In this document: positions 6,011 to 47,110 of the stretch, one piece after another
Layout of the letters: every line of letters starts with the position of its first letter
Numbering within the stretch: position 1 is the first letter of the stretch
NCBI GenBank assembly: GCA_900618425.1
Contig: UZAN01039570.1
Location: forward strand, 19,977 to 83,976
DNA from: Echinostoma caproni
Taxonomy: Eukaryota > Platyhelminthes > Trematoda > Plagiorchiida > Echinostomatidae
Length of the DNA stretch: 64,000 bases
Reading direction: 5' to 3'
The notes under the pieces: model-generated
The model's database searches: none
What the model was told of the DNA's origin: nothing
The model's input: only the letters and a program-made list of their open reading frames with translations
Made by a program: the position numbers and the translations under genes

Positions 6011-6014
<4 letters not shown>

Positions 6015-6979: not shown

Positions 6980-7130
6980 GCACTGGACAGGTGTTTCGTT
7001 CTGTTTGAGACTCGAACTTTTGTGTCTCTATCAAGTCTCGGACCGCGGACGTTCATGTCGGGACTTCAAACCCTTACCCTTGAGCTATACGGTCGACGGT
7101 TCTCACCTTGTGCGAATCAATTTAGAGTAT
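6980..7130 (-). repeat. SINE relic with decayed hammerhead motif
   Basis: On the minus strand a tRNA-like head has an A-box-like tagctcaagggtaag and a B-box-like gcggtccgagacttg. It is followed by the 3' half of a hammerhead ribozyme: GAAA, an ACA/TGT stem III, the cleavage C, and the stem I strand CAGTGC (6980-6985). The 5' core CTGATGA has been replaced by an unrelated sequence. The copy lies inside the 168-bp inverted repeat. Confidence 0.5.
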
Positions 7131-7437: not shown

Positions 7438-7540
7438 CCCCCACAATTTAGTCCTCAGGATTTGAATTAGGCCGAAAATATTTCGAACTTGGGTGCGCTG
7501 TAATGTATACACAAAGTGGAATACTCGGATTAGATTCCAA

Positions 7541-7610
7541 GGCCGTTGGGTGGACAGTAGGCTCACGTTCCACCTTTGAGGTCCCGGGTCAGCGATCCTC
7601 AGTTGGGCCA
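7541..7610 (+). repeat. tRNA-like SINE head or tRNA pseudogene
   Basis: About 70 nt begins ggcc and ends ggcc, so the ends could pair as an acceptor-like stem. It contains a degenerate A box (gttgggtggacagtagg) and a B-box-like gggtcagcgatcc at 7585-7597. The length and layout are tRNA-like, but the TΨC region carries an insertion relative to a functional B box. A retroposed tRNA-derived sequence is therefore likelier than a working tRNA. Confidence 0.4.
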
Positions 7611-10620: not shown

Positions 10621-10750
10621 ATGCACCAAGACCGAAAGAAGACATGTCGCGTGATGTTAACATTTCGTTTAATCTTCTCAGTCGCTGACTTAAAACAAAC
10701 AAGCACATTTGTAGCACAGTAGATTTGTAAATCCTAGTGAACGGACATGT
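10621..10750 (-). repeat. Left inverted arm (pLTR) of Penelope-like element
   Basis: The reverse complement matches 12951-13074 over nearly its whole length, including ttcactaggatttacaaatc and gaaatgttaacatc. The first PLE open frame starts at its inner edge. Confidence 0.75.
10646..10689 (-). ncRNA. Hammerhead ribozyme relic in left PLE arm
   Basis: Read on the minus strand: a stem I strand gtcagcga, a core ctgagaa (intact hammerheads have CTGANGA), a very short stem II region, GAAA, a stem III palindrome atgttaacat, the cleavage triplet ATC, then cgcgac. In this copy the stem I 3' strand is acgcgac and the core lacks the CTGANGA form, so cleavage is doubtful. PLE terminal repeats are known to carry hammerhead motifs in other animals, and this fits that pattern. 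Confidence 0.45.
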
Positions 10751-12910
10751 ACAGTTAGTAATGAACAAGTTCATTGAAAAACAACAACGATGTGTTCCTC
10801 TTTTAAGCGATCTCAACTTGGTGTGCAGGGTAAAGTTCAAAAATCTTTCCAAATCAACTCTTCAAAAGACAAAAGAAAGAACAATCGAAAAATTGCTCCG
10901 TAAAACACCACGAAAGCCTTCATTTGTGTCTTCCATACAATCGTCTGAACATATATACAATTTCACATCCACCACTTTCACACAAACACAAATGGATGTT
11001 TTATCACTGGGGATGAAGTTTCAGATTCCACCAAGAATGGTTAACAGTCTCCAGAATCAAGTTCAATTCGAAAACTTCTACGATCAGCTGAAGGACCTTT
11101 CACCCACATCAACAGAAAATGGCGGGTGGTTCCGTGCGAAAACGGTGGATATTTCTCACTCGTACCTTGCGGCACCGATTCGGCAACAGAGCTGCCTCAC
11201 TTCCGAGCACTATAAGGCAATACAAGAACTAACTGAAACATATGTCAGATCTTAGATTCCTCAAGCCGGACAAAGGATCTAGTACCGTGATCATGACCAG
11301 GGACAGTTATACAAACAAAATGAAAGAAATACTAATGGACGAGGGCAAGTTCCAAATAGACAAGACACCGGATAACAACTTCACTGAAAACCTTATCGCA
11401 AGGAAATTACATATTCTGTTACTACATGACTACATATCCCAAACACAGTATAAACAACTGAAGCCAATGGGGACAGAAACACCACACATGAGAGCTTCAC
11501 CTAAGGTTCATAAACCCGGGACTCCTCTCAGACCAACTTTGTGTATGCAGAAATCGCCATATCACAAACTCGCTCGATGATTGGTGGAAATTCTAAATCC
11601 CGTTTGTAAGTCTTTAACACCCCATTGTTTAAAAGATTCTTTTGAACTTTCAAATTGCCTTGAAAATTTGACCATATCTTTACAGTGGATGTATTTGGTA
11701 GATGTGGATTCCCTTTTCACCAATTTTCCACTCCATGAAACAATTGTTTTTTACGTAATTATATTTCTTCAGGTAATTTTTCTCTTGCCATTCCTCATGA
11801 ATACTCAAGTGAACTAATATTTCTATGTACTGAAAACATTCGTTTTTAATTCGAAGGAGCCACATACAAACGGATTGATGGCGTGGCCATGGGCAGTCCA
11901 TTAGGCCCGATTCTAGCTGATATATTTTTAGGATTGATTGAACAAAATCTTGCCAATGATATCTCCCAGTCCAGTGTGTACAGACTTTATGTGGACGATA
12001 TTTTTATTCTTACGGAGCGTGAACATTTTAAATCCCTTTTGAGACAATTTAACTATTCATCCACATCTTTCCGTATCCCACTAAGAAGAAAGTAATGATT
12101 CTCTAGCATTTTTGGATATAAGAATTACGAGGCGCTTAGATGGTACATTACAGCGTTCTATCCAAAGAAAAGCAACACGGAGTGGTCAATATCTACAGTT
12201 TTCTAGCCTCTCACCCATGACTCATAAACGTGGACTCGTAAAAACTCCGTTCCATCGCTCCAGAAGAATTGGTTCCCCCAGACATACTACGAGAAGAATT
12301 TCTGAAGAAAAGGTTGCTACGAAACGGTTACCCCGAAAGATTCATTGATATTCACATCAAATAATCTCAAAAAGGTAACCCATCGCCAACTGTTCCCCAG
12401 AAAGCCGTTTACATCAAGCTATATTATAAGGGCGATCACCTGAAAGATGTGCGCCAAATTTGAAGTCAGCTCTCAACCGCACATTCACAGCTGCTTAACT
12501 CCGACTTATTGCCTCTGCTCGTGGAATCAATTTGGACGTGTACATGGTTGGCAATCCAGTTATGTCTCCCACACTGTATACCAGTTCACCTGTAGTTGCG
12601 GTGACGCATAGGCAGAACCAATCGTCAATCACAGCGGATGGCCGAACACATTCCAAAATGGTTGATGAAGTCGATGACGCAACCCACGCCCACCAATCAG
12701 GCGGTCACAGCTAACCCGGGGTCGTCAATCGCAAAACACCTCATGACAACCAAACACACAATTGATCCCGCTTCCTCCTTCAAATCGTTGTTACGTAACT
12801 GTAATGCAAAACTGTTGGCAATAAGGGAGGCGTTGCTAACCCGATTACATAATCCCGTTCTGTGCGCCCAAACGTTGTTGATTCAATCAGTTCACTTGCC
12901 GTGGAGTTGA
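10737..12910 (+). pseudogene. Penelope-like reverse transcriptase / GIY-YIG endonuclease, broken
   Basis: The protein is spread over at least five segments. 10737-11255 holds the PLE N-terminal region, including TQMDVLSLGMKF. 11242-11580 starts with RFLKPDKGSSTVIM, and an in-frame TGA at 11578-11580 separates it from 11581-11817, which carries RT motif A (VDVDSLFTN). 11883-12095 has the motif B-like MGSPLGPILADIF and the catalytic YVDD at 11988-11999. 12112-12348 is the thumb region (LDIRITRRLDG, then HKRGLV). From about 12578 a Cys-rich GIY-YIG region (FTCSCGDA) is followed by a frameshift into 12638-12910 (AEHIPKWL, SSIAKHLMTTKH). The catalytic Asp residues of motifs A and C survive, but the GIY-YIG core has lost a few bases. 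The gene is dead yet nearly complete, so its loss of function looks fairly recent. Confidence 0.85.
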
Positions 12911-12950
12911 CTTATTTTTCAATTCTAATAGCCCCTGCCTGACTGCACTT

Positions 12951-13074
12951 GTACGTTCACTAGGATTTACAAATCTAATGTGCTATAAATGTGCTTGTTT
13001 GTTTTATGCCAGCGATGGAGAAGATTAAACGAAATGTTAACATCTCGCGACATGTCTTCTTTCGGCTTTGATGC
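12951..13074 (+). repeat. Right inverted arm (pLTR) of Penelope-like element
   Basis: Inverted copy of 10621-10750. The 3' part (about 13008-13051) includes the word gaaatgttaacatctcgcg, which is shared exactly with the PLE fragment near 45591-45609. Confidence 0.75.
13008..13051 (+). ncRNA. Hammerhead ribozyme relic in right PLE arm
   Basis: Stem I strand gccagcga pairs with tcgcgac (GCGA/TCGC plus flanking pairs). GAAA, the palindromic stem III atgttaacat and the cleavage triplet ATC are intact. The 5' core reads tggagaa where CTGANGA is expected, so this copy is probably inactive. Confidence 0.45.
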
Positions 13075-14835: not shown

Positions 14836-16511
14836 GTAAGACTTTTGAATGCTTTTAGTCACTTAATTTGCAAGTATTTATCTCAGTGAATTTCGCCTAA
14901 TCGTGCCTTTCACTGAACAGAGTTAATAAAAGATTTTGTATCGAACTTTTCCAAGAAACAAGGATTTCACGGATTCAGATCAACCGTATGTAATAGCTGC
15001 TGTGCTCGAATGTTCATTGCTTAAACTTAATGAGCACACCAAGAAGTAATTTCATTCAATGAATACCCAATTCGTTCAACGGCTACCATCGACTACGCCA
15101 TCCATGTTATGGGACAGATGCGTGTTCGTGATATGCATCTCCTGGATACGGATTGCATGTTAAACGTGAAAATTTGGTAAATAAAGACACCGACATGATT
15201 AGTGCCTTGTTTCTTGCCATCAGTAAATGGTGTTTTAGCTACCTCGCTGTTTCGCTTGGGTTGTCATCAACATGCACACATGTCCCAATTGCCTGGTACA
15301 AGCCCATCGTTGCCTGTTTCTAACTAACATGAATAAAATAGTGATGATTTAAATCTATTCCAGCGGTGTGTGATGCAGTCCTTTCATCATTCTAGACTAT
15401 CACCTGACTTAAACGTTACCAATGAGAAACGTCTCCGCGGTCCTGGTTTCGGGGGTTGTTTTTTAAATCAATCAATGCGCTTCACACCAATATCATTACG
15501 TTATTCACATTCCGTTTGTGAATTTGTTTGCTTTTCTGTCCTCCTTATTGAAAAAGAACAGCAACTAAATGGTGCCCAAAGTTTTAATAAACATCCGCTC
15601 ATTGACATATCTGTGTTATTTACAGTGTGAACTACATAAACTCAATTGAAGTAGAAGCCCCATTTATGGAGCTATACCCGGTTAAGTTCAATGAATCAAA
15701 GGCAGCCAGGTTTTGGACGCTTGTGATGAACAAAACAATTAGTATACGGTTTTAGAAGGCGGAACTCTATATATAGAGGAATCACACTTAGGCCTTGTCA
15801 CTTCTCTTGTGGAGGCGTCACAGTACAGGGGATCAATACACATGTAACACAAACCTGGGCACAACACACAAACAAGAAGACAACCACGCCATACTGCGGC
15901 AGTGTCCACCTAGACCCATTTTCTATCGATTTACAGGCTAACTGGGTGCCCAATCAAAAGACTGAGTTCCTTCCTTCAGTCGCCTAATTTTTTTTTCATG
16001 ACTTGAAAAGTGATTTACCGCGGATCGGTTCTGTTACGCACCACCATTGTTGCATTACATCCTAAACTACCGATATGCATATTTTGGAAACCATGAGCAA
16101 ACGTGTTTGATACAAAAAGTTTGGTCAAATGGTCGCGTGCTTTTTAATTGAGCTCACATAATGCGATAAAATCCCTAAATGGACTTCAAACCTAAACCAA
16201 CCAATCTGGAAATAATCTTCGTAGGTTCTATTGAGAGTAATAGGGGCGAACAGTTCGTGAACAGGAGAAAACGATGAGAACTTGCATAGGGATTTCGGAG
16301 GCAAAAGATTTGTCTACAGTCACTACGCAATTCCCCAATTTTCGCAGTAACAAACTATCAAAATCACTTTATAGTGTTTACGAAGAAAATCTGTTTTTCA
16401 TTTAGCATGGGTATCAAAACTGGCAAACTAGTGTTCTTACTCAAGGTTATATTAGATAGTTTAATAAAAAGTAGGTTACATTAAAATTGGCTTTGGAGCA
16501 GCTCAACTCAC
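14836..16511. other. Presumed intron or flank of the cadherin gene
   Basis: This sequence lies downstream, on the minus strand, of the cadherin exon donor at 16510-16511. No minus-strand frame continuing the sixth cadherin repeat is visible here. No other gene is supported. Confidence 0.5.
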
Positions 16512-18980
16512 TTGATTATTAGCTTCAGTAGCATCCGCATCAGAAGCATTGATTTGTCCAATGAGCAGATTAATCTTAGCATCTTCAGAGACCGAAAGTT
16601 GATACAAAGAATTGGGAAATATAGGTGGACAATCATTCACATCCTTTATATATACAATCACATAACCAGTGACTTTGTGTTCCGCGGTTTCCTTTGTTTC
16701 TGATTTGCCAGTTCGCCGCAGATTCGCAATGGACTCCAGACCGTCTGCACTGCTTGATCTGGACACCTGATCACGCACAATCACTGTAAGATTGAAGTAT
16801 TCTCGTTGTTCCCGATCGAACGAACGCAAGCTGGAAATGACCCCAGTACGGGAGTCTATGGTGAAATCGTTCGAGTTCAGATCGTCTAAAGCAAACCCGA
16901 GTTGCGCATTCTCACCCACATCTGGATCATGGGCTTCCACCGTGTACACCTTTGTCCCAATCGGTTCGTTCTCCTTCAGATGTGCAATCATGGGAGTGTG
17001 TTTGAATATGGGTCCGTGGTCGTTAATATCTTCAATAATCAAATGTATTCCAAGTTGAGTAGATAACGGGGGATGTCCACGATCGAAGCACGTGAGTGTT
17101 GCAAACTGTTCCGTTTGTTGTTCCCGGTCAAATGAAGTTTGAGTGACTAATTTAAACTGATTCGTAGATCCTTCAAACAGGGGTCGTAAAGCAAGTCCAG
17201 CGTGACTTAGTTTGCAATGGGCTCCGAGGTTCATGGTGTCCGATGTACCAGCTAACCCCGGCATAAGGTAGTCTAGGTTAGATCCACCTTCACCGGAGTA
17301 ACCTGGGCCTTCTTCGATTCCCGTTATATCATCCACATCTGTCACAGTAACCGTTGCAATAAATCGTCCAGGTGCGTCATGTTCTACTACATAAAGTGCT
17401 ACTGATTTCGCGTGAGGAAACAGTGAACTAGTCGGATGCGATGAACTGGTGCCTAATTTTGATCCATGTTCATCTTTTGGCTGACCAACCGGTCGGATGG
17501 TGATTACTGGGGGATGATCATTCTGATTGCGGATTCTTACAAATAAGTTCAAAGAGGTCACGTGTTTTCCGTCGGATACAGTTAAGGGAACATTGTATAT
17601 TCGTTGTCTTTCAAAATCTGGGGACTGTAGAAGTACAATTTCACCGGTTTTGGCATTTACTTCAAACATTTTTTTTATTGACAAACTTGCGGATGTATCT
17701 AGTTGGTAAAGCAAATGACCATTATCTATGTCGTCTACATCCGTTGCACGGGCCACATAAACCACTCTACCCACAGGGGTGTTTTCCTCTATCTCCATCT
17801 GTTCCTGCCTGGCTACATCCCCGATTCCCGTTGCACCTAATTCTTTTGGAGGTTGATTTGCACTGCCCAATTGAAAAATGGGTGGATGGTCATTTATGTC
17901 GGTCACGGTAATGTTTATCATAACATGTCCAGTCAACGGGGTCGGTTGACCACCGTCAGCGGCAACGAGTTGTAGTCGTGCATTTCTTAAATGCAACCGA
18001 TTCGTTCCAAATAAGCCGGATAGGGCTTGGTGCTGTTGTGTTTGCTGCTGCTGCTGTTGTTGTCCAACACTATTTACAGATTCCGGATTATCGTAATCCA
18101 GGTCGCGTACAACTCGAAGCCACAAACGAAACATACGTCTGCTGCAGCCACTGATGAGCCACAAGTTTGGCAAATTTCCAAGACCAACATCAACTTGATT
18201 GGGACTGGGCAAAAATTCGGTATCCAACTGAAACGCCTCATGATTAAACGGACCTAGTTGGCTGTGTTGAACTCGATCGTCTGAAGCCAGATCGCGTAGC
18301 ACATAGCTCATAGTCGTATTGATTGGTCCACAGTCTGGATCGAAAGCCGCTGGCAATGGCAGCCGGGTTCCGATCGGCGAATGTTCAGGTACCGATAGGT
18401 GAATGACGCTCTCTGGCCATCCAGGCGGATTATCATTCACATCCAGAATGATCACCTTGATCAAAATAACGCGATGTGTCATTGGCTCAGTATTCGATCC
18501 CGTTTTTTGTGTAAATTGTAAGGCTTGAAGTTGAACTTTGCACACATTATCGGTGCCAGTGTTAGTTAAATCTGGGTGTGTGGGGGAACCAAAATTCAGT
18601 TTTTCCAAGTCCATCCGAACTGTACTATCCAATGATGTGGATGTTTGCATTTGTCGAGGACAGAGCCGTTCCCGATCGATTCTGTTTCGAGTGAAAAGAT
18701 CACCTGAGGTTTCGTTTAGGATGAAGTGATTGGTTTGCGTGAGCAATTGGAATGTGCTCAAAGGATAAGAGGGGACATTGACTGTGGTCAATGGAGCACC
18801 GTTTAAATTTCCTATAAATGTGTGCAACGGACATTCCTCGGTTAATGTGAATTCCAGCGTGATCTGCGCAAATACCAAATTTTGTGTTCGGATGAGGATA
18901 ATGCAGGCGAGATGCAATAAATTCCAAACAACTCGCTGAAAAACGTATGAGGACCACATAGAGGTGGCTGAAACAAACAT
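16512..18980 (-). CDS. Protocadherin-like receptor, 5' coding exon
   Basis: A calcium-dependent adhesion receptor ectodomain, expected to be secreted to the cell surface and anchored by a membrane segment not present in this exon. The 823 codons encode a hydrophobic signal peptide (core about residues 18-30, likely cleavage after VFA at about 38) and cadherin repeats EC1 (about 40-186), EC2 (190-367), EC3 (393-491), EC4 (525-657), EC5 (661-786) and the start of EC6. The inter-repeat calcium motifs are clear: DVNDNPP at 180, DINDHPP at 361, NQNDHPP at 485, DINDHGP at 651 and DVNDCPP at 780. DxD-type motifs are seen at DPDCG (214), DVDDIDNG (414) and DPDVGENA (685). EC2 holds a seven-Gln run (307-313). 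The exon ends at a consensus donor CAA|GTGAGT (GT at 16511-16510), phase 0, so more EC repeats, a transmembrane segment and a cytoplasmic tail are missing. The ATG at 18980 is preceded by no other in-frame Met. However, tttgtttcag just after it (AG at 18969-18968) could be a cis- or trans-splice acceptor, which would make the Met at 18959 the start. That Met still gives a good signal peptide. Confidence 0.93.
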
Positions 18981-21189
18981 AGTTTTGGATGGACAAATTA
19001 CGCAATAGACGTGTCACACAATCATGTATGGTGACACCTGGGAAATGGTGCCGACGGTTAATGCAAATAGGTAAATACCATGGAAGAACATGTTTGTCTC
19101 GGGAACAATTTCCACTGTATTAATCCCTAATCGGCATATCACAGTAATATTCGCTCCGAAAAGGAGGCCTACAAATAATGACTGCGAATATCAAGGCACC
19201 GGGATATTGGTGTGTCTTTGTTCGTGTACTGTATACAATTCTTCTGGGGCGAGCGTCCCACACACCCATGACGTATTTTCCATGCATTTCTTCACTATGA
19301 CCATCTTCGGCACCACCACATTCAACAGCACTACCATCAGCACTAACCCAACCAGGTGCAAGCGTGAATCGTTTCAGAGAGGGGTGGGCTGGGAGGAGGG
19401 GAATACGCGGTTGACTGTGGTCGGTCAACAACCAATCACTGATTCAACACTCACACCATCGGTCAGTGTGTCTGTCTATCCGTCAGTCGATCTATAGTCG
19501 AATTCTGTATAAGGTCGTTGTTGTTTGTTGTCTGTGCATTCGTACGCATGTCAGTTCATTCATGCCTGTCCCTCCAACTATATCCCATGCCACGTGTTTA
19601 CCTTAGCTGTGAACCTATTAGTCTGTCTGGCTCATCAAAAGACCGTGTGTTGTGCTACGGCGAAAGAACTAAGCAATAAAGCACGAATACTGCATGTTCG
19701 TGGGTGCGAAACCCGCACTGTCGTCTGAGGATATCATTAAATTCTTCTGGGCACATTAAATGCTGCAATAGTTCAAAATGTTTGAAGCATGTCAAATTAA
19801 ATTTGTCTGTCCTTTGATCAGCTGATAAATTTGTCTATATTTGTTCACACAGTACAACGGTTGACTTAAATCAGGATGATGAATTGGTAGGACTATGATT
19901 CGACTTTGAATCAGCCATGCATCTGCCATAGACTCCTTCAGGGTTCCTTCAACAATGTGTTCACCACGGGCCTGCTCTATGTTCCGGAACTGTCTCATTC
20001 AAAACGAAGGCATTTACATGTGTTTCCCCTATCATCCTACACGTGTAACCCCATGTTTAGGTGGGTTTACTAGTTAACCACCTTTTTACCGATTAGTGTT
20101 ATTTTAATTTACTCACCTGTGTTTACTTATTTTACTTTTGTTCGCTGTCAGAACAACTTAACGTTCTTGTTTTGAAAAATGGACTGCACTTACAGATTCT
20201 TAAACACCAGAAATAAACACTGATGAACTGCTATTACTGCGACCACTACTACTCTGGTGCCAGTACAATGATTCCAGTTGGTTATTGTCCGACTATTTTA
20301 TTTTAGATACCTTTTCGCCAGTGTGATCTTGTTCATGTATTTCTGAGCTAAAACAAAACTTACATGCCACAAAATATGCGAGAAATCGGGTGCTGCATTA
20401 CTGCGAATCTTCCGGATCTATCTGATTGGATTCCTGAAGTAGGATTGATTTGGAAGGATTGAACTTTTCTCAATCAATGAACAAGAAAAAAATAAACCGC
20501 ATTTCGATAGTTTTGGGATAACTGACTATTCTAATGACGAGCACCGCATTATGGTGCCTCGCCTACTGATGAAGTGAGCTTTTTGATCGTATCAAGTCAA
20601 GTCACATATGACTAGTGTTCAGTCGAGAATTGGGGAATCGAATTTTCATATGGTCTTTCGAGACGTCACACACCACAGAAATCCCTAAACACGTTTCAAA
20701 CTTATCTTATCCTTGGTGTTAAAAATCGAAAATATACATCGTTTTATATGAATATAATGACACAGAGCTATGCTTTTCACAAGTTATTTAAGAACAGACA
20801 TCGAACTATTGTGTTTTCATGCATACCATTATAATGCTATTTATATTTTTACGACAGTTGAGCGGACAAATACAGCGTTTCGAAACCATTCGCATATAGT
20901 TGCTTCAACTTAGTTAGTTCACAGGATACTTCAATTAATTATTCAGAAGGTGGAGAGGTAATGTGAAATGATCTATGGTGTAGCGGCTTATTCGAAAGAT
21001 AATAAGTGTGAACGGTCTATAATGTAAAGCGTCACTGAAGATTTAGATATAATTTCAGCAAATCGTTTGAGTTCTAAAACCAAAAATTGGCGTCTAGGAA
21101 TCTAGATGTATTATGACTTGAGGGCTTGAACGCCTACGATAAAACAAATTAAGGTCTAATTTGTGACTAAAATTTATTTTATACGTGAG
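18981..21189. other. Upstream region of the cadherin exon
   Basis: The 19100-19500 part is GC-richer than its surroundings and has overlapping open frames on both strands (19090-19497 plus, 19120-19431 minus). It may be 5' UTR or promoter DNA of the cadherin gene, but no domain or definite splice site supports a coding call. The rest is AT-rich. A hairpin at 20538-20561 (cgag-cacc / ggtg-c-ctcg) is the only structure I noticed. Confidence 0.35.
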
Positions 21190-21310
21190 TGGTGGAGGAT
21201 GATTTCATTACGTGTGTTGAATTTCTCGTGTGCATGAGGCGTGACCTAGAAATCTGGGAAGCACTGGACAACTGTTTTGACCCGGTTGAATCTTATCAGT
21301 AGTGCTATTT
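21190..21310 (-). repeat. Ribozyme-SINE copy, degraded
   Basis: The reverse complement follows the SINE at 29655-29760 closely: a hammerhead-like block (21261-21305), then cttcccag, then a tail with cctcatgcacacgagaaattc. The tRNA-like head is not clear. Point changes in the ribozyme core make this copy inactive. Confidence 0.6.
21261..21305 (-). ncRNA. Hammerhead ribozyme, inactivated copy
   Basis: Exactly the same 45-nt length as the intact motif at 29655-29699. Stem III (acagttgt), the cleavage C and the 3' stem I strand CAGTGC are kept. The core reads ctgataa (G8 to A) and AAAA replaces GAAA (G12 to A). Both changed bases are needed for catalysis in known hammerheads. Confidence 0.6.
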
Positions 21311-21699
21311 CACCAGATAAGGTTTACATTTGATGATACTGATGATTTTTTTTTATCCCCCGAAGTGGATCGTTTTCGACGTTAACGATTGGCAAAATAA
21401 GGCAAATGTGAAATGAAACTCACTGTAATCGAATAATTGTTTAGGCTCAAAATTTAGTTGAAGGCTTTAATTTTTTCTCCTCCCAACAAAAAATGTGAAA
21501 TCATTTCAAACAAAACAACAGAATGGCGAACAAGCTTGCTTTCAGAGATTCATGCCACTACATGTCAAAACATACTTCTTGGGAATAAAATTGTTTTGGG
21601 AAAATCAAATGAAATCACAGATTACTGGAAACGATTTCATTATGAGCCCGAAAATTGGTTTCACTACGATCACACATTTCACGTAAGTAACGGAGGATT

Positions 21700-21795
21700 T
21701 CATTCCATTTCAAAGGTGAATTCGTCGCGTATATAGAAAATGAAGCCTGAACTGAAACTAGGAGGCGCTGGCTAGTACTGAGATCAGCAGTGTTT
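21700..21795 (-). repeat. Ribozyme-SINE copy with ribozyme mostly deleted
   Basis: On the minus strand cactgctgat is followed directly by ctcagtactagccagcgcc and then by a tail with caggcttcattttctatatacgcgacgaattc. This matches the SINE at 29655-29740 except for loss of the middle of the ribozyme core. Confidence 0.5.
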
Positions 21796-22549
21796 GTGGC
21801 CCAAAACAACATCACATATTTGTTTGTCCACTCATTCGTTCATCCAGATTACTCGTGATACGGGGTGTGGGGGCCATGGTAGCTTTAGCGCTTACACGGA
21901 GGGGGCTTGTGCAGACGGATGATCACCGCTTATGCTGTAACTGGCATCCGACAGTAAACCTGTCTCGATAATCGCCCACGAACTTCATACAGGGGGTAGA
22001 TACGTCCGCAGTGTGATTTGTTTCAGCTAGGTGTGAAATTACTGCACTGGAGAGTAGCTTAATCGTTCCGGTCAGTGTTCAGCCAAGCAGGGTGGTGTTC
22101 ACGAATGTGTTCGGACACTGTACGTTGTTCCACATTAATAAGTAAATGAGTATACACAAAATGAAACTGCAGAGTCTGGAACGTTGTCCTTCAGTCGCAA
22201 ACACAATCGGCTTGGATGCGAACAAATTTGAATTGACTACGTCGGATAATGTTCTTTATATGATCTCAACTTATGTGTTCCCTTTGAACGGTAAAGAAAT
22301 GTACACGGATTTTTTCCTAACCCCTGTATTTTTTAAAGAGTTTTATGCGCACTGATTCACTTTGTTTACTAAACGCTCCGGATGCCCGTTACGTGCAAAG
22401 ATGGATTTTATAGTACGGAGCTTGTTGACTTGACAGGCTACAACGATCCACGTAGAGTGACGCGCATAAAACCGGAAGACGGTGTCTTTCAACAAATGGG
22501 TTTCTATTACAAAAGCGGTACTGAAATACAGATTACAATAGTGTAAAAT
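21796..22549. other. Region upstream of candidate exon
   Basis: No gene is supported. A 69-codon open frame at 22146-22355 has no recognisable domain. The sequence could contain the 5' UTR or promoter of the candidate gene starting at 22550. Confidence 0.35.
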
Positions 22550-22799: not shown

Positions 22800-25402
22800 G
22801 TGAGTGGGTGTAGGTGTGTGCGTGCGTGTGTTTACACAAGCATCAGAGTCAGTCGATCATGGGGATGGGTCGATGGGATGGGTGAGACCGACAGAGGTCA
22901 ACGTAATGGGGCAAACATACGAATAGTGTCAGCGTATGTGTAAACGGTGTGGAGAACAGTCATAGGTACGGATCAATGAGGGGATGAAATCAACATCGCA
23001 CGGTCAAAGGGAAGACAATGGACAGTAGGATAGTGGTACTGGGTGTGTGCATGTAAAGAGTGTCAATATGGGGCGGAAGTTATTCTACAGAGCTCTTCTT
23101 TTAGCTTGAATCCGATTTCCGGTCTCATGATGAAATCGTTTGTAGTATTCTGTGATTTCATTTTATTTTCCCAAGACAATTTTATTCCCAAGTAGTGAAA
23201 TATATATTGACATGTATTGCCATAAATACGAATAGCTGAAAACGAGCTTCTTCTCCACTTGGTTGTTTTGTTTCGAATATGTAACCAAATGAACTTTAAC
23301 TCAATTTATTGGTGTTTACACGTGAATCAATAAATGAATATAGCTACAGGCCAAAAATCAATTTTACGATTTCTCTTTTACACCAATCCGTAAAACTTAA
23401 ACGCAGGAAAATAGAATAAGCTGCCTGAGGAAACACGGTTTGTATCGAATCGATCATTGTAAATAACACGTGTTGTTGGGAAAGGTTTACCGATTTGAGG
23501 GTGCTTTTTTATTTGCTAACGTGGCTTGTACAACTTCCAGGTGGTCACTGGCATATGTGGCCATCGTCATAAAAAGTTATTACATATCAATAACCCAGAT
23601 TTTGTCAAGTGAAAACATCGTCGAGTGTTTTTTTATAGTGATTACCGCTCTGCAGTGTCCGCATGTAATTCATCAATCGAAGACGTAAACACTCTCTGGG
23701 GTTTCTAAACTGACCCCATGTTTAGTCGTTGATACGTGATGGAAATCCCGAATAAGTTAACAAATCACACAGCTGTTCGAAATGATTTAGAAAACATCCA
23801 GATTTTGAAACCATGCAAACATTGAAAAAAGTGCACGAAACAACGGTTGCAGAATTGTTCCACGTGAGTGGAACAGTGAATTGATACCATGTTAGATTAG
23901 CGCTGCCTGTTATGTATAAACTGCTTTGTATTCTGCTATAAGCACCAACTGAGATGCAGTTAAATGATTTCGGAATTCAATCGTATTCGCTTACAATTTT
24001 GTGTGTTTTGTTCATTATAATTCCGGTGGAATTTATTGCGTCTAAAACAAATTGCATTCAAAAATTGACTGTCTGTACAATCTTTGCAATGAACTAAATG
24101 AATTCCCGGCACCCGTTTCAATTTTTCTTCACTTGATACGTTCTATGTTGTGGGTTGATGTATGCTTTTTGTCTCAGACAGGCACAAATGTAGCAGGTGA
24201 CATCAGGACACTGTGATAAATCATGCAGCTGATGTCACTTGCTGGAATCTAATGAGACGACCGGTGTACCTTGGCGCTCGATTATGCGCTGTTCTCTCAC
24301 GCATAACTTCATTATCCGGCACAATTCAATTAATAAAATTTACGTAGTAGTGTGTGCCGGGGGGGGGTGAAGGAGGAGGGATAAGTAGAAACCCCGTCAG
24401 CCAGTTTGGAAAGTGTTCAGTTTCAACTATTCTGATTAAGGACTTAGAAACCAAAAGTGAAATTTTGTGCTAAGCAGGTACACCTGGTACAATTCCCTTA
24501 GCCGTTAATGATGACTTTCGGGATTTGGGGAACTATCTGTTTTTGTTTCTCGTAAAACATAGTGAAGTATGCTAAACAAACAGTTTATTTTTCTAAACAT
24601 GGACTCGCGGAACATCAGCAACGTCGTGTTATACTTGAATTTAGGCAGTTCCTGTTCAGGATCAACCAGTTTACTGGTGTAATGTGTTGTCCGTGTTGAA
24701 GAGGCTAAATTAAGTGTGTTTTAACTGCTTACAAGAAGTCGAACGATAAGCATTGGTTGAAACTACACGTGTTATAATTTTAGAAGGCGGTGCCCGGTTG
24801 AAGAAAGTTATTTATTGCAGATTACAGTTAATATACCAATAATTTGGCGTAAGTGTAACATGTACCACATTTGAAACGTCATCACCATTACCGGCAGCAC
24901 ACAGGGTAATGAATAAAGCAGTCCGTAGTTATTATTCGAGACAACAATTTGCCCTCAGCGGTCTTGTTAACTTTTGATCGTCGAAGGAAAGAACCATTAT
25001 ATTGCATACTACTCGCAAATGTAAGTAGTATCTCACAATACATGAACACATGCGAGTTTTGAAGCCCAAGCTTTACCGACAAAGGGCGCCTGTTCACACC
25101 AAAGCCAAAGTAGGAGCTTCAATTCCATGCATATTTGTGTGATTCAGAGCAATTTAAATAAATGGAAATATCACTCACAAACTACAAATCTGTTTTGTTC
25201 GTGCAACAATGAACTGATCATTTATTAATGAACCAGTTTTATTTCGATTAATGAATTTGTATTGATTCGCTGTGATTATGTGGTTGTATCTGTTTTTTTC
25301 GAAAGATTACAAGGGTCAAATATCACCGAAAACATGCACAGTGGTGTATAACACTACTGCCAGTGGAAGATGGAATAATATCATTTACTAACTGCACATT
25401 GG
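22800..25402. other. Presumed intron or intergenic DNA, no gene seen
   Basis: It begins with GT-rich sequence (22800-22835) just after the candidate donor. The rest is AT-rich with short open frames only. A poly-G tract lies near 24359-24367. I can support no gene. Confidence 0.45.
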
Positions 25403-25440
25403 GGTGGAGAGAATCACCTCAAGCAGGGATTCTCTCCACC
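25403..25440. repeat. Perfect 13-bp hairpin at LINE 5' edge
   Basis: ggtggagagaatc (25403-25415) and its exact reverse complement (25428-25440) are separated by a 12-nt loop. The recognisable LINE coding sequence begins immediately downstream, so this may mark the truncation point. Confidence 0.7.
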
Positions 25441-25462
25441 CTACCGCCACCGAACACACGCT

Positions 25463-26991
25463 TTGGGCCCACCGTGGTTGTACCGGGAGTTGCTAAAGTG
25501 CCTCCGGCAGGGAAACGAAGCTTGGTCTAGATACCGCGGAACAGGCACGGGATATGAGGAGTATCAAACCATTCGGAACCAGTGTACTGCACTGAAGAAA
25601 TGCAGGAGGACCATATTTGAGGAGCGCATTGCAGCGGTTTCTGTACAGGTGCCGAAGCGGCTGTATACCCATCTCAGGCGAATAGTAGGAACTACTTCGA
25701 GCTTTCCGACTATCACAAAAGACGGGTTATTAGCTGAAAACGATGAGGGCAAAGCACCTATATTGGCATCACATTATGTTCCAGGATATTCCCAGATTTT
25801 AACACATCGCCACGTCTACCGGGCGCTGACACTGTACCAAACTGAGCTCCATTTACTATCGGAGAGATAGCCTTGAAGCCGCGTCGGCTGAAGGTTCACC
25901 AGTCACGTAGATCTGCTGGGGTGTATCCATTTACCGCAAGGGAGATGATAGACGAACTCGCAGTGCCGTTGTGCAACCTATGCAACCGCTGCAGTGGACG
26001 GATGTTGTCACTGTGCCAATACCTAAAAGCGGAGATAAGAGTGACTCTTGAAACAACCGACCAGACAGTCTTATTAGTATTGTGGGCAAAATAATGAAAC
26101 GAATGGTGGTTGCACGGCTTCGGCAGCATTTGGTGTGGCATGGTCATCTGTGCCACCAACAACGCGGTTTTAGTCCGGGTCTCTCATGCCGTTCGAACGT
26201 GCTCCTAGTCCGCGAATGCTGGACTGAGGACAAGGCCAAAGAAAACGAAATGAACATCATCTTTGTGCATTTCAAAAAAAGCCTTCGAGAAAGTGCTATA
26301 CAACCGCCTTCCGCGAAAGGTGTCCAACCTTGGCGTAGGTGTGACCATGCTGAATTGGCTGCAAGAGTTCCCTACCGACAGGAAATTCTACGTCCGTGTT
26401 GCCAGGTCGCTATCTACCTTCTAACCCACCTCTAGTGGGGTCCCCCAAGGCTCTGTCTTTGGTTTACTCTTCTCCGTGGTTTATGTCAATGACTTGCCCA
26501 GTCAGCTGCGTAGCCCATCACTTATGTATTTGAATGAAATCAAAATCTGGCTTACAATCGAGGGTACAGAGGATCAAAGTACTCTAAAAGATCTTAACAT
26601 CCTGGTTCAGTGGGCGGATACCTGGGTACTTCCAGTCAACACCTCAAGGTGTACTTACCTGCACCTGGGGTGTGCTGAGGTGGTCTACAGCCTTCAAGGA
26701 ACCAGAATACGCAGAACATCGTGCAAAAGAAGCCCCGGGAGTTATGATGACAAGATCAATGAAGACCCGAGAAAACACCGATTGGGTCTGTGCCAATGTT
26801 TGGAACATTCTGGGACCCATTTGAAGATCTTTCAGTCGGCTTACGATCAAAGCTTTTGGACTGATTTACGCTTCCCACGTTAGACCGAAATTGAGTAAGA
26901 TAGCGCCTCGACAAACTCCTGCACAAACGGTGAACTGGCTAAGTTGGAGCGTGTACAACGTGCCGCCAATAGACTCGTTGTTAGACTACAG
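25463..26991 (+). pseudogene. CR1-like reverse transcriptase, dead
   Basis: Segments in different frames preserve the usual order. 25463-25870 carries PPWLYRELLK and FEERIAAV, the pre-RT linker. Around 26000-26100 a shifted frame reads VVTVPIPKSGDKSD and then SIVGKIMKRMV. 26082-26435 holds GFSPGLSC and the motif A region (IFVHFKK, where FIDFRKAF is typical). About 26440-26883 carries SSGVPQGSV (motif B) and VYVNDLPSQL, and motif C appears as MYLNEIKIW where YADD is expected. Near 26944 LERVQRAANRL is the typical C-terminal landmark. Both catalytic Asp residues of motif C are lost and frames change several times, so this copy is inactive. Confidence 0.8.
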
Positions 26992-27412
26992 GTATTGACC
27001 AAACTCGTGCAACATCCTGATTTTTATTACATTTGTTCCTCTCAATCCTTTATTCTTCCAGCCTCATTCACGCGTTTGAATATGATATTGCCCCACATCA
27101 GATGCAACATAGCTGATATAATATCCACTTGTTTCACTACTTCTATTAGCCACATGCCATTAAATTGTACGATTTCGCGATTTCAACGATTTTTGCAAAT
27201 GCATCAGTTGTAAGATAACAAGGTCACAGTAGAAAACCTAACTGTAATTTATTCATTAAAATGACTCATAGACTTTATACAGGTATTGCACTTTCATCTC
27301 GTCCATGTTCCATTTTCTCCTCTTCAATTTTGAGCGCTGGAGGCAGTCTCCTTAGGATGGAATCCACCAAGTTAACTGCCAAACAGAATTTTTAAGTTTC
27401 ATCTAATACACC
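26988..27412 (+). repeat. 425-bp direct duplication, copy 1
   Basis: Matches 27424-27848 base for base in length with five mismatches by eye. It is followed by a single N and a short AT run. Confidence 0.95.
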
Positions 27413-28026
27413 NATATATATATACAGGTATTGACCAAACTCGTGCAACATCCTGATTTTTATTACATTTGTTCCTCTCAATGCTTTATTCTTCCAGTCT
27501 CATTCACGGGTTTGAATATGATATTGCCCCACATCAGATGCAACATATCTGATATAATATCCACTTGTTTCACTACTTCTATTAGCCACATGCCATTAAA
27601 TTGTACAATTTCGCGATTTCAACGATTTTTGCAAATGCATCAGTTGTAAGATAACAAGGTCACAGTAGAAAACCTAACTGTAATTTATTCATTAAAATGA
27701 CTCATAGACTTTATACAGGTATTGCACTTTCATCTCGTCCATGTTCCATTTTCTCCTCTTCAATTTTGAGCGCTGGAGGCAGTCTCCTTAGGATGGAATC
27801 CACCAAGTTAACTGCCAAACAGAATTTTTAAGTTTCATCTAATACACCGCACACTTTTACCACTGGCGACCAATGGCAAGGTAGCTGACTTATCCCTATT
27901 TCTGAAAGAGGGAAACGTTTCCGATTAAATTAAAATCCTAGCTGCTGCGCGTTAATAAAACGAATTTGACATTGAAATCAACCCCTCTAGAAACTGTATA
28001 AATGTGAAAAAATAATATTCATTCAG
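26992..28026 (+). mobile_element. 1,035-bp intron-like insert inside the LINE
   Basis: This sequence has no counterpart in the LINE reading frame and sits between two LINE parts that join cleanly across it. The left junction is ctacag|gtattg and the right junction is ttcag|gtctaa, so CAG is present at both edges and the insert itself begins GT and ends AG. It contains a 425-bp duplication (26988-27412 and 27424-27848). I find no coding sequence or known terminal motif. It may be a non-autonomous element with a 3-bp target duplication or an intron-like insertion. Its true length is nearer 600 bp if the duplication is an assembly error. Confidence 0.65.
27424..27848 (+). repeat. 425-bp direct duplication, copy 2
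   Basis: Second copy of 26988-27412. The spacer is only N plus ten AT bases (27413-27423). An unmerged allelic overlap is possible. Confidence 0.95.
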
Positions 28027-28433: not shown

Positions 28434-29489
28434 ATCGAAATAACAAACAACATTACCATTGATACAGTGATGAACCTTGGTTTTCGTAGCCCGGGTCGGA
28501 GAGTTTCGGCAGTATCGTGAGATTGAAAACTGTTATTATTGGTTAATGGTATTCATCGGTCTGAGGTCAGCTTGACTGGATCATATGTTGACCGGCGTTC
28601 ACTTATCCTAAGTGAAGAGTTTTATTGCAGTTTATATGAAGATTTGTTTTCGGTGGTCATTTAAAATGTTTGATTGCACCCTTGGCAGCTTCCCTTTTGC
28701 CAATTCAATTCTTCTTTGGTTGTATTATGGGTTTCTGAAATTTCATTCTCCTTGAGGAAATTCGGGATTAGGAATAAAACCGCTGTAGATGAAGCTGAAT
28801 AAATCAATTGACAGAATCATGCATGAGAGCCCTTCATCACGGGCACTTCAATTAGTGATGAAACCTTTCAAATCAGATTATCCAGCCGAACGAACTAGAT
28901 AAAGGAAATTAATTTCAATAGTTATGATGCAACACAATATTTTGTTTGACAGTACTCATTCACTCCGGTTCAGCAGCAAGAAACACGTAAAAGCTTTGAC
29001 AACCTTGCACAAGTGTCTACCGCCACTATCGTTCCTTACATGGCGGGACAATTCGATCATGCGGTAAATTTTGCATCGAGGTTACATTAGTATTCAATTG
29101 ACGAAAAGGTTTTCTACCCAGATTCGACTCTCACCTATCATGAAATAAGTCATCTGTCCTAATGCTGAAATCACTTCACAAATATCTATACAATTCCTTT
29201 TGTATTCCTCAACTATCCAATCGCTTACCAAACTAACAAGCCCATCCATAACCACATGGCTTTACCCTACACAAAAATCTACCCCATTGGCTGATTTTAG
29301 ATAAGTTACTGATTGCGATTACCTAGAAGGAATAGCAGAAAAATGTCAAAACGGTTCCAAACAAAGTTGCATTCGTATTATCACAAAATTCGGTATTGAT
29401 TTCTCGGCATAAATATGTGCATTTGTTTTCGTCATTACCTTTCTCGAAAATTTATACATTTCTCGTATGAGAGTAATACAGAATTTGAT
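28434..29489. other. Non-coding stretch, no gene seen
   Basis: AT-rich sequence after the LINE. I see no gene or nameable repeat. Confidence 0.5.
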
Positions 29490-29527
29490 TTGCTTATATG
29501 TTGAATTCATCGTGTACATGAGGCAGT
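29490..29527 (-). repeat. SINE tail fragment
   Basis: The plus-strand word ttgaattcatcgtgtacatg (29501-29520) is the reverse complement of the tail word shared by the SINE copies at 21190-21310, 21700-21795 and 29590-29780. Only the tail is recognisable. Confidence 0.35.
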
Positions 29528-29589
29528 AAGCTGACATTGATGGGTTTTGCTATATCGTGTATATTCACAATGAGAAACGGTCTAATTAG

Positions 29590-29780
29590 CTACCCGGTGG
29601 CCGAGTGGGTAGTATTCTTGCGTTCTACCTGTGAGCTCTCGGGTCGATGGATTCGCACTGCTGATGAGACTCAATCCGGTCGAAACAGCTGTCCAGTGCT
29701 TCCCGGCTTTTCAGCTCAGGCCTCATTTACACGACGAATCCATCATGTTTATGCATTTCAAGCCTTGCACCATCCTTATT
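29590..29780 (+). mobile_element. tRNA-derived SINE carrying a hammerhead ribozyme
   Basis: A tRNA-like head (A-box-like tggccgagtgggtag at about 29598, degenerate B box ggtcgatggattcgc) is followed at once by a complete 45-nt hammerhead motif (29655-29699) and a tail with caggcctcatttacacgacg. Degraded copies of the same arrangement occur at 6980-7130, 21190-21310, 21700-21795 and 31600-31800. SINE-like repeats with hammerheads are known from schistosomes (the Sm-alpha family). This copy is a related design, but I cannot say whether it is the same family. Boundaries are approximate, with no clear target-site duplication. Confidence 0.7.
29655..29699 (+). ncRNA. Hammerhead ribozyme (type I), apparently intact
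   Basis: All conserved parts are present in order. Stem I 5' strand GCACTG (29655-29660) pairs perfectly with CAGTGC (29694-29699). The core CTGATGA spans 29661-29667. Stem II is GACT/GGTC (29668-29671 with 29678-29681; three Watson-Crick pairs and one T-G) with a 6-nt loop. GAAA follows at 29682-29685. Stem III is ACA/TGT (29685-29692) with a minimal GC loop, and the cleavage triplet GTC has C17 at 29693. The RNA is predicted to self-cleave after 29693. The very short stem III suggests that, as in other SINE and PLE hammerheads, it may work best as a dimer. Confidence 0.85.
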
Positions 29781-31599
29781 CTGCGGTTTTAGTAAGGATT
29801 AAGTCATCACGAAGAGTCATTTACAGTAATCGTTTTTAGACCAACTAATATGACGTAACTACTGAATGAAGCATACCATTTTCTGTAATAACAAGCAAAT
29901 CGTAAGTGTTCTATGAGGATTATTTATCACGCGCAGATGCTATGTGGATGTTGCCAGAAAGCCATTCATCATATACAACACAATGGGATCAAGTTTAATG
30001 GACAGAAACATCCGGTCACTAATGGATCTATTTGCTGGTCACCTCCCATCGATAGCCGAATGGGCGTTTCCTGGCCGTATCATATATCCATGTATTTATT
30101 TACTTTCATGTCAACCAGATGTTGGAAGGTTCACTAGTTTTATTTTTTTATCAAACTATAAAAATTGAACTCGTAAACGTTTGGTACCAGAGAGAGAGCC
30201 ACAGGGAAAACTTAAGTTTTAAGTTCCGGAGTGGCTTTTGCATAAAAATTATGTCATTTGTATTGCACAGTTTCCCAAATTGACCATTAATTGCAATACA
30301 ATTTCCTCTGGCAAACTTATGAGAAATCTAAAAATATAATAAAAATCAATATCAACCTTGGTGAGATTCACAAGCAATTCCAACTGTTTCTGCATCCTTC
30401 CTAACCTTCGTGTATGTAACTGATATCATTGCTACGAGCTATGCGGTCGATGAAGCGAACTGTTGCGCATGAACGCTTTTAAATATTTTACAATGACTAG
30501 AATATGAATGACTTGACAAATCTTTCCTGGAAGCCCAGAACCGGTTTTAGGGTTCTGGCTGCTCGTGAGGCTTGCCAAGTAATTAAAATACTAGTCATCG
30601 TAAAGTAATACATAAAGACGCCTAACTCACGGTTGTTGTGGTTCAAAGCACCTAAACCAGCTACAGAACACAGAATCATAGTATTGTTTCTGAAATAGAC
30701 TGCCAAAAGAAATATACCCGGTGTTGTGAATGAGATAGTTGTGTCAAAAATACACGTCCTGGTACAAGTATATGAACTGATGGACGGATATGTGTCTGGT
30801 AAGTATTAGGAACCGCGAAACCGATCGCGTGATTTCAGGGCAGTTTTTTCGAGTCATTTACGTATTTCTTATTATAAAACCTGTATAAACACAAACATTT
30901 CGAGATTTATAGAAAACCCATTGATCAACTGTTCCTCAGAATTACTTTAAGAACGAAATTCTGTTTTACTCTAATAGGGCATTCATTGTACATTATCCGC
31001 TGATGTACTCAGATAAAATATCCTGTTTCCACTTCAATAAAGGAACATAAGGCTTTTTAATTTTAAAAGCTGACTAGACAAAAGGCATTAATAATGGATG
31101 AATTTGAAAAGGGAATCAATAAATTGGAAGAATAAAAGACTTCAGGTAAACAAATGCGTAATAAGTAGTCCGAGCAAGACTTATTCGCAGAACTACCTAT
31201 TGCGAGTGACACTCGTTGGTAAGTTGTGATTCATCAAAACCATTGTTCTTGTCCCGCAGACCATAAAACGGAATGTCGTGGTGTGTTCATGAACTCTTTT
31301 GAAAACTATGAAGATTCCAAAGATAATTTGTACATCTAGGGAGGGATTTGTCGCAATACTACTTATTAGGTATTTCATTTCGAATGATTCTCAACGGCTT
31401 TGGGTCCTTTATCTTTGACTGCGGTTTTTGTGGTTATGATTATTGTTTTGATGGAAATGCTAGTAAAATTCCAACTAATATTTATGAGCATAATTTAATA
31501 CCCATACACTGCGAACGGTAAGATAGATGTAGTGAGCAATTCGTCCTGCTTATTGGTGAATTCAGTTGTGTTTGAACTAAAATAGATATAAACTTTAAG
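29781..31599. other. Non-coding stretch, no gene seen
   Basis: AT-rich DNA with open frames under 80 codons and no supported splice pairs. I see no named repeat. Confidence 0.5.
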
Positions 31600-31800
31600 G
31601 CTGTTTTGACCTTGTCGAGTCTCATCAGTAGTGCGCACCCGCTGACCCTAATAAGGATAGAACTAGGGAATTTCCAGTTTGTTTTGTGATAGCTAACAAA
31701 GAGCAGTGCATGAGTATTTCTCTCCCCTTGGAATTAGTCAGCTGGAAGCATTCTTTTTCTTCGTAGGATTTGGGCCGTGGATGTTCTGGCTGGAGACAAG
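31600..31800 (-). repeat. Ribozyme-SINE relics
   Basis: On the minus strand, 31635-31600 gives GCACTA, an intact CTGATGA, a stem II closed by GAC/GTC, then AAAA instead of GAAA, after which similarity fades. A second block at about 31690-31720 (minus) resembles the ribozyme 3' half at 6980-7005 (gaaatactcatgcactgctctttg). Two nested or adjacent degraded copies are likely. Confidence 0.45.
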
Positions 31801-32262
31801 ACTCTTATTACTCAATGGAAAATAATTTAGTGAGTTGCATGTAATCCCTAGGTTGTTCATTGAATTACGATGAAGTTCAATTGTTCGGCTTTAGATATTG
31901 GATCACCAAAGTTCGATGAAATAACGTATACAATCATCCTACCACCTTTTTCATAGTTATGTAGAGATAACGGATTTTGTAAAGTATAATAAAACGTTGA
32001 CTGTATTTTTATCAACAAAATTGTTTTGAAAACAGATGGTAGGTTGTCACATTAGGTCGTATATGCGTAGGATTTACCTGCTATTTAGAAATACACCTCT
32101 TTAACTGTCAGGCAGTGTCTACTATCTTTCTGAATCAGAGAATTACAATTGGGCCATTTGTTAACGAAGGGTATGCGGGTCTCACTGGTAGCCTTGCTTG
32201 GTGCTTTGCCTCAGAACTCTAACAACTTCATCTACCCTTTTATTCTTTTTGTTTTTTATTAG

Positions 32263-45625: not shown

Positions 45626-47110
45626 ATATTGATAAACAAGAAAATCTATTTTGTGTACCATGCTTACCAGGTTTGATGGTAAACGTTAGCATGCAGCTTG
45701 GGAGATGATAACTGATTGGGAAACCTGAGTGTTCAGTTTTGAGCTAGGAACCAAGCAACAATAGGCGCAGTGAACTCTGGTTGGTAGAGAGCCACCTCGA
45801 GGATTCCGACGCGGGCGCCGTGTGGTAAAGCAGATGGTGACTGTGTTCATGACGAAAACCGGTCACGTGTTTGCTGTACCAGTCGTACAGCAAAGCTCAG
45901 TCACCATGGTCTAGTACGCCAACCACTGTCTGCCGAAAGTGCGGGGGGTTGTTGCTAGGCATTTCCCAAGGACTCGAGCTCTAGGGACATTTGTGCACCA
46001 CGCAACACACCTGCACACAAATCCCATGTCTTCGGCAATTTTATGGCTAGAGAACTCATCCAGGAGGTTGATCCCCACTCTACAGTTCAGACATTCTTCC
46101 GTAAGAATGTTCATGTTTTCAAATGTGATGCGTGGAATCCGATACGAGTCACTAACAACTGTAGTGGAGGCCTTCATTGAAATGGTCGAAGGGTTACTCC
46201 CTTCTGCATAATAGAGCTGCTTCACGAACTAGTTTGAGGGCATGGAGCTGTGCATGGATGCTGGCGGAGAATACTTCGGGAAAACGAAATGCATATTTTT
46301 GTGTAACAAGTGAAAATTCCTGGGCTTCCGGAAACGTTTTGCACAGCCCTCGCATCATTTTAAAATTTTGTCATTATTTCGCAATCGAGTTTGTTTTCAA
46401 AGGGTGATCGAATTGCTCCAGCATTATTTTTACTGATTACATTTTCACTTCGTCTTGATATTTAACTGGCTATTTTGAAGATCGTTTTATCGCCGCAATA
46501 CTGGGCAACCAACAATACATGCTCCCAAACTTGATATCATTTTATTGAAAAACAGCTTAATTTCTCTGGAATTAGCGCCCGGAGCGAGGATGAAGACGGA
46601 CACATTGCACTTGATAAAGACCTTACTTTGTGTTCAGTTAAAACCTGTGAGAAAACCCCATGCGACCTTACTGATATTTGTGGTTTGCAGACTATCGTTT
46701 TTCCGGGAGACCATCGATGAAACACAGCTCCCTTCCTGATGGTCTTGAGGGGAATAGTATGGACCATATATTTTATGGGGAGAGAAATCCTATTGCCCTG
46801 ATTAACGTAAAAAATTGCAGTCGTGAATATAATACAAAATACTAGTCACTTTATAAACTAGGTCAAAAGTATTATAAAATTTCGTGTGTAATCAACAATA
46901 GTGAGCAGTAAACAGCTTATCTGTTCTTGCTTGGACCAATCAGCTATGCAGTATATTTGTATTTACGCGGAGCCTCTGACCATGTACCTCCAAGTATGGA
47001 GCCGAAACCTGTATCTCTGGGCTACATTTCCAAAGGCCAGTGTTCTTGGTGAATGGAAGTCGATCTTGTTTTTTACAGGGATCATGGTTTATAGGTTTAT
47101 GATGATACTC
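45626..47110. other. GC-richer stretch, possible unidentified repeat
   Basis: 45780-46260 is GC-richer than its neighbours and has overlapping frames of about 90-104 codons on both strands (45911-46225 minus, 45939-46211 plus). I recognise neither. Nested inverted repeats occur at 45835-45906: tggtgactg...cagtcacca enclosing ttgctgtac-cagtc-gtacagcaa. It may be a fragment of an old mobile element. Confidence 0.35.

Follow-up and report, generated by a model that had tools for sequence, protein, structure and literature searches.

A non-coding hammerhead repeat of the fluke Echinostoma caproni with insertion features suggestive of a Penelope-type helper enzyme

Introduction

The window analysed here, a stretch of 64,000 nucleotides from the genome of the trematode Echinostoma caproni, contains a predicted type I hammerhead ribozyme that lies within a repeat. 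What kind of element carries this ribozyme, and which enzyme inserts its copies into the genome? Two groups of elements frame the question (here and below, citations refer to excerpts of the sources). The Sm-alpha and Sj-alpha families of Schistosoma combine, like the fluke repeat, a type I hammerhead and a tRNA-like head in a repeat family, a likeness of plan. Metazoan non-LTR retrozymes share with it a non-coding unit of ~170–400 nt, a type I hammerhead, the capacity to form tandems and a GC content below 50% (PMC7229834).

Either LINEs or Penelope elements are candidate helpers (PMC11722881). Penelope elements in particular have been named likely retrozyme helpers from co-occurrence, and retrozymes are described in the same excerpts as showing no motif that gives away their autonomous partner (PMC7761336). 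In the titles and opening lines of abstracts listed from the open-licence literature, we found no hammerhead SINEs from flukes outside the schistosomes and no account in retrozymes of the insertion signature described below. In the excerpted text of an article on transposons of Fasciola hepatica, SINEs are mentioned and the word ribozyme occurs 0 times (PMC11270206).

Results

The predicted hammerhead

A first-pass annotation had described an apparently intact hammerhead with every conserved element, and the covariance-model search upholds this. RF00163 (Hammerhead_1) matches positions 29655–29699 of the forward strand over the whole model with 38.5 bits, above the cut-off of 34 (E 3.5e-6 in a search with all 4227 Rfam families). 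By sequence reading, stem I is GCACTG/CAGTGC (29655–29660/29694–29699; 6/6 paired), the core CTGATGA occupies 29661–29667, and stem II is GACT/GGTC (29668–29671/29678–29681; 4/4 paired, including one U-G). A GAA at 29682–29684, with the GAAA element present, leads into a minimal stem III (29685–29692), whose octamer ACAGCUGU is a palindrome, and into a GTC site with a predicted cut after 29693. A motif scan that required a fully paired stem II, at least 5/6 pairs in stem I and at most one core mismatch returned this site, with zero core mismatches, as the only one in the window, and none in 20 dinucleotide-shuffled windows. At the same place the RAGATH-1 hammerhead model (RF03152) gives a weak overlapping match of 16.1 bits against its cut-off of 56.3. 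Matches to P10 and to group I introns in the window fell under their cut-offs and were rejected.

In its minimum-energy fold the 45-mer fails to adopt the hammerhead core, because GCUG of the core pairs with CAGC of stem III, and we count this result against the model proposed below. Nor is the 206-nt stretch around the ribozyme more stable than shuffled versions of it (z −0.09). Folding by itself is no demonstration of ribozyme activity, which is predicted here. Because stem III is palindromic, a dimeric ribozyme is possible; such dimers have been reported for newt and viroid hammerheads with a weak helix III (PMC6155905).

A promoter-like head

Upstream of the hammerhead, the A box TGGCCGAGTGGG (29598–29609, forward strand) has zero mismatches to TRGYNNARNNGG, which we take to be the A-box consensus, and a degenerate B box, GGGTCGATGGA, can be read at 29641–29651 on the same strand. 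Scored against these consensus sequences, both of which we assumed, the A box is perfect in 19/50 family copies and the B box keeps 8 or 9 of its 9 fixed positions in 16/50; neither occurs in any of 50 shuffled heads. The placement of the ribozyme directly downstream of promoter boxes, in a repeat dispersed through a fluke genome, thus stands as first annotated, and a putative Pol III-type promoter in the family heads is supported by the sequence comparisons.

Its further description as a tRNA-derived SINE is only partly sustained. The Pol III boxes agree with it. A tRNA origin of the head is only an inference from those boxes, because tRNA models recognize none of the heads: the tRNA covariance model (RF00005) has no match on any head in the window or the family loci, and ARAGORN finds zero tRNAs in the window and none on the family heads. 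A simple order of head, ribozyme and tail does not hold either, as the window copy represents only part of a 336-nt unit and forms half of a head-to-head insertion. One RF00005 match, in L058, was set aside as support for a tRNA-like head. It marks a separate tRNA-Cys-like gene at 832–916 of that locus (ARAGORN, anticodon aca; RF00005 29.0 bits, equal to the cut-off), 47 nt from the family copy and without similarity to the heads.

A dispersed family with a 336-nt unit

A profile built from 29585–29790 matches 7 other stretches of the window, among them the left arm of the insertion described below and one member of a second family, and nothing in 20 shuffles. The family is dispersed, with at least 47 matches in the 426.5-Mb assembly (12,689 contigs) among the 40 of 2543 first-look candidates that were scored; no copies occur in 22,253 bases of sampled contig stretches. 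We examined 38 of the 39 matched stretches as loci, all selected for their similarity to a single query. RF00163 reaches its cut-off in 23/38 loci (13/20 and 10/18 in two sets), the match in L077 being to a second-family copy, and in the first 20 loci 14 such matches are spread over 13 loci. In a profile alignment blind to structure, 38 of 51 family-1 ribozymes are 45 nt long and 14 of the 51, the window ribozyme among them, are strictly intact. Identity to the majority sequence is 91.6% in the ribozyme and 84.1–88.2% in the rest of the unit; we set the ribozyme's top conservation aside as evidence because a query centred on the ribozyme picked the loci. A recurrent insertion, in which GCACTGCACTGA or a similar sequence replaces GCACTGCTGA in the ribozyme, is present in five family-1 copies (L052 678–724, L054 752–798, L077 766–812, L055 1064–1110 and L067 969–1010), perhaps members of a subfamily with a bulged core.

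The unit is best seen in the direct dimer of L057, where ribozymes at 1076–1032 and 740–696 (minus strand) lie 336 nt apart; a tail, a linker and Pol III-type boxes separate them, in this order from the first ribozyme to the second, and the interval contains no ORF. Direct pairs occur in 3/38 loci (L047, L057 and L065). No autonomous Penelope-like ORF, with reverse transcriptase and GIY-YIG domains, was found in the unit, which at the 336 nt measured in the L057 dimer is too short for one.

Several degraded family-1 copies were found in the window by profile search: 21213–21314 (minus strand) with a core reading CTGATAA; 5851–6026 (minus) with linker, head, broken hammerhead and tail; 7484–7631 (plus), mainly linker and head; and 31534–31673 (minus), which adjoins a second-family copy in the same orientation. 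A degraded head-to-head pair spans 21704–21825, with a tail at 21771–21704 (minus; 29.4 bits) and a linker at 21766–21825 (plus; 11.6 bits).

A second hammerhead family and covariation

The second hammerhead repeat family in the window differs from family 1 in head and tail. Its copies, all on the minus strand and with approximate limits, lie at 6880–7110 (hammerhead 6980–7024), 48020–48270 (hammerhead 48123–48167, stem II GTCC/GGAC) and, in degraded form, 31661–31820 and 46854–47047. A better copy occupies 1490–1280 of L077 (minus strand), with a hammerhead match of 55.7 bits and the B box GGTTCGAGTCC. The stretch 31820–31534 of the window (minus strand) reads as a second-family repeat followed directly by a family-1 copy, either a dimer of mixed composition or neighbours by chance.

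The two refuting conditions of the first-pass annotation give a mixed picture: the covariance model is matched above its cut-off, and compensatory stem changes are seen between the two families and not within family 1. Within family 1 (38 copies) covariation comes to one cell and is no better than in shuffles, a result that neutral decay of inserted copies would predict. The five window copies by themselves do not exceed shuffles either; taken together with the Rfam consensus, they give 7 two-sided pairs, a count equalled in 1/500 shuffles. Between families, stem II pair 15–26 occurs in both orientations: of 13 sequences, 7 have A-U and 4 have U-A. The outer pair of stem I changes from G-C to A-U in one sequence, from L077. 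For these 13 sequences the covariation score is matched by 3/500 shuffles and the count of two-sided pairs by 280/500, so that between-family covariation, as judged from the alignment, appears modest.

Insertion architecture

Arms separated by a gap of at most 60 nt are arranged head to head in 23 of the 38 loci and tail to tail in 0; 14 loci have a single arm and 1 (L047) has direct copies only. L057 and L065 combine head-to-head arms with a direct pair. Where arms reach the tail, their ends fall into two clusters: 25 of 61 such ends lie 47–63 nt past the cleavage site and 21 lie 83–99 nt past it, with 5 between these ranges and 10 beyond 100 nt. In the family profile, each cluster coincides with a copy of a shared motif: TCATATAAACAAAT, starting 50 nt past the cut, and TCATATAACAAATA, starting 81 nt past it.

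The two ends of an insertion are usually unequal. Among 19 two-arm insertions, 17 have an end at ≤66 nt and the other at >66 nt, none is short at both ends and 2 are long at both (binomial p 3e-4, with the 66-nt threshold chosen after the clusters were seen). Four of the 23 head-to-head loci were left out of this set: L051, at a contig end; L064 and L066, in which an arm falls short of the tail end; and L065, with three overlapping arms. The long arm is the left one in 7 and the right one in 10 of the 17 unequal pairs. Only in 10 of these pairs are both clusters represented, by one end each; the long end lies beyond 100 nt in 5 (L049, L055, L063, L076 and L078), partly through chance extension or a longer reading, and between the clusters in 2 (L071 and L077). 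Matches to microRNA precursors on L066 were rejected, being far below their cut-offs and of a kind that would fit any long foldback.

Target duplications were sought as direct repeats within 8 nt of the outer ends in 18 of the 19 pairs (L057, with three arms, was left out). A score of at least 7 was obtained in 8/18 same-locus comparisons, compared with 14/306 mismatched ones, and a score of at least 9 in 3/18 compared with 0/306; the observed mean was reached in 0/20,000 permutations. The other 10/18 pairs have no clear duplication. The eight best duplications are 77% A+T (72/93 bases), compared with 59% in the loci. Because duplications flank the paired arms, such a pair represents one insertion event.

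The ribozyme of the window belongs to such an insertion, at 29463–29747. Its left arm (29463–29534, minus strand) is an inverted tail copy with a long end ~93 nt past the cleavage site and a profile match at 29534–29493 of 17.7 bits (E 2e-5). Its right arm (29523–29747, plus strand; profile match 29523–29750, 257 bits) consists of linker, Pol III-box head, hammerhead and a short tail that ends 53 nt past the cleavage site. The two arms overlap at their junction. The tail proper, which starts at the cleavage site and stops at the proximal (short) end defined by the arm-end clusters, is 29694–29747 on the plus strand. A 12-nt target duplication adjoins the outer arm ends, TTTATACATTTC at 29451–29462 on the left matching TTTATGCATTTC at 29748–29759 on the right in 11/12 positions. 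The ends first presumed for a SINE at this place gave no target duplication; the corrected ends did.

A Penelope-like element in the window

A decayed element at 10623–13074 (plus strand), with inverted arms at 10623–10758 and 12939–13074 and remains of a reverse transcriptase between them, is presumably Penelope-like, the Penelope and GIY-YIG assignment being our assumption from motifs. The 136-nt arms are 90% complementary, and RVT_1 matches 11850–12092 with E 2.5e-6 and 27.8 bits, just under the Pfam cut-off of 29.6. This reverse transcriptase fragment has at least 150 matches in the assembly, with 150 of 1655 candidates scored. No family-1 copy was found upstream of such matches in eight 1.2-kb stretches, some from elements perhaps truncated at the 5' end, and the only response of the family profile there is a weak match (12.9 bits) to a hammerhead in L091. 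This hammerhead was considered as the ribozyme of a Penelope terminal repeat (pLTR) and rejected, as it belongs to a second-family insertion. The eight stretches thus gave no sequence link to a particular Penelope family, which counts against the model proposed below. A minimal hammerhead-like string, CTGAGAAGATTAAACGAAATGTT, in an arm of the window element is too weak for use.

The window holds further features. Remains of retrotransposon ORFs lie at 25379–26883 (plus strand; RVT_1 matches under the Pfam cut-off) and, judged by eye, at 63030–63809 (minus). A 436-bp unit is present in two tandem copies with 98% matches at 26987–27848. An open frame of 836 aa at 16503–19013 (minus) is protocadherin-like, its best named relative being from Fasciolopsis buskii (67%).

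Discussion

We propose, with a probability of about two in three, that the ribozyme belongs to a non-autonomous retroelement of 336 nt, similar to retrozymes and Sm-alpha, that is inserted in trans by a Penelope-like reverse transcriptase and endonuclease. In a first step, Pol III or read-through transcription would yield RNA with one or more units; the boxes are observed, and transcription is what they suggest. Next, the hammerhead is predicted to cut this RNA, and the pieces may circularize. A Penelope-type enzyme could then prime cDNA synthesis at either of two sites in the tail ~31 nt apart, each near a TCATATAA(A)CAAAT repeat, with both strands of an AT-rich break being used; end positions, asymmetry and target duplications are observed, and the enzyme is what we deduce from them. 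Finally, two cDNAs, usually one from each start site, would be fused in head-to-head orientation, with the junction at variable 5' points, giving the structure found at the loci.

The insertion structure agrees with Penelope-like elements on each of the points compared. PAc of Anolis and Pen2a_Av of Adineta vaga share with the fluke repeat a hammerhead, head-to-head arms and an extension of ~30 nt on one arm, and further resemblances are target duplications near 10 bp, AT-rich targets and two adjacent cDNA start sites (PMC11167929, PMC3846280). With AT-rich DNA as target, the purified Penelope protein of PAc cleaves and extends the two strands, starting cDNA at two adjacent internal sites, and the stretch between these sites is the 30–40-bp tail of genomic copies, a signature called unique to Penelope-like elements (PMC11167929). 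In the same excerpts the PAc hammerhead cut is placed at +26 and the commonest start 111–118 nt into the ORF, without a statement as to which of the two sites this is (PMC11167929); by subtraction, that start lies 85–92 nt past the cut, compared with 83–99 nt for the fluke long ends. Rotifer Penelope elements have head-to-head inverted pLTRs with an optional 31-bp tail on one of them, and target duplications of 8–10 bp in several inserts that are missing in some (PMC3846280). Unlike Penelope-like elements, the fluke repeat is a non-coding 336-nt unit without an ORF and with Pol III-type boxes. We lean, by a small measure, towards taking the combination of two cDNAs from duplicated sites 31 nt apart, an intact ribozyme joint and use of opposite sides of an AT-rich break as a fingerprint of the helper enzyme in genomic copies.

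Four other origins deserve consideration. The copies could be those of an ordinary tRNA-derived SINE inserted by a LINE through target-primed reverse transcription, with the inverted arms arising by twin priming. Pol III boxes, dispersed copies and variable 5' truncation would all fit, and the window contains non-LTR reverse transcriptase remains at 26052–26880, with RVT_1 under the Pfam cut-off. Twin priming by a LINE would be expected to invert a segment copied from elsewhere on the template, farther upstream. Here, by contrast, the same tail recurs in the two arms, whose ends lie near one or other of two sites and are unequal in 17/19 insertions, and the direct tandem unit of L057 is atypical for a SINE. 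We regard this origin as unlikely.

Another reading makes the copies solo or partial pLTRs of an autonomous fluke Penelope element. That Penelope pLTRs bear hammerheads (PMC6155905, PMC7761336) and are inserted in head-to-head order with a tail (PMC3846280) speaks for it, but the L057 dimer, with its 336-nt spacing, has no ORF between its ribozymes, and none of the eight upstream stretches, a small share of the 150 scored reverse transcriptase matches, holds a family-1 copy. It strikes us as quite unlikely. Terminal inverted repeats and target duplications might also be expected of a foldback or MITE-type DNA transposon that holds a hammerhead by chance, an origin we judge highly improbable given single arms in 14/38 loci, variable arm lengths, differing internal junctions, unequal ends and the existence of direct tandem units. 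That head-to-head pairs are two independent neighbouring insertions, as a common family and the clustering of degraded copies in the window might suggest, is scarcely credible in view of 23 head-to-head and 0 tail-to-tail loci, duplications that flank the pair as one unit, and unequal ends.

Among known systems, Sm-alpha is nearest by host and plan, and animal retrozymes are nearest by unit and ribozyme. The comparison with Sm-alpha made in the first-pass annotation is borne out by the shared fluke host, type I hammerhead, tRNA-like head and unit plan, and W36.2_W001, which represents Sm-alpha, has 335 bp compared with the 336-nt unit here (PMC8490949). The Sm-alpha head is reported as derived from tRNA-Gln-TTG (PMC2770079), whereas the fluke heads are unrecognized by the tRNA model and ARAGORN, and the paired inverted arms present here are unmentioned in the excerpted Sm-alpha accounts. 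Retrozymes seemingly lack promoters (PMC7761336), in contrast to the Pol III-type boxes of the fluke repeat, which further differs in forming mostly single units or inverted pairs, and not long arrays, in the loci examined and in its insertion signature. The plan of the ribozyme unit was already known from Sm-alpha and animal retrozymes; what is new here is the insertion mode of the copies.

There are several implications. Animal retrozymes and Sm-alpha-like elements are widespread, and the published case for their helper consists, in the excerpts cited, of co-occurrence and shared features (PMC7761336, PMC11722881). The fluke copies record the insertion reaction itself, which suggests Penelope-like enzymes. 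First, arms that continue through the cleavage site bear on the role of the hammerhead, as the RNA template there must have been uncut or re-ligated. Second, the proposal can be checked from genome sequence alone in any animal that bears retrozymes. Finally, if it is true, Penelope-type enzymes would be helpers of animal retrozymes and Sm-alpha-like elements, and Pol III-promoted RNA could serve such enzymes as a substrate.
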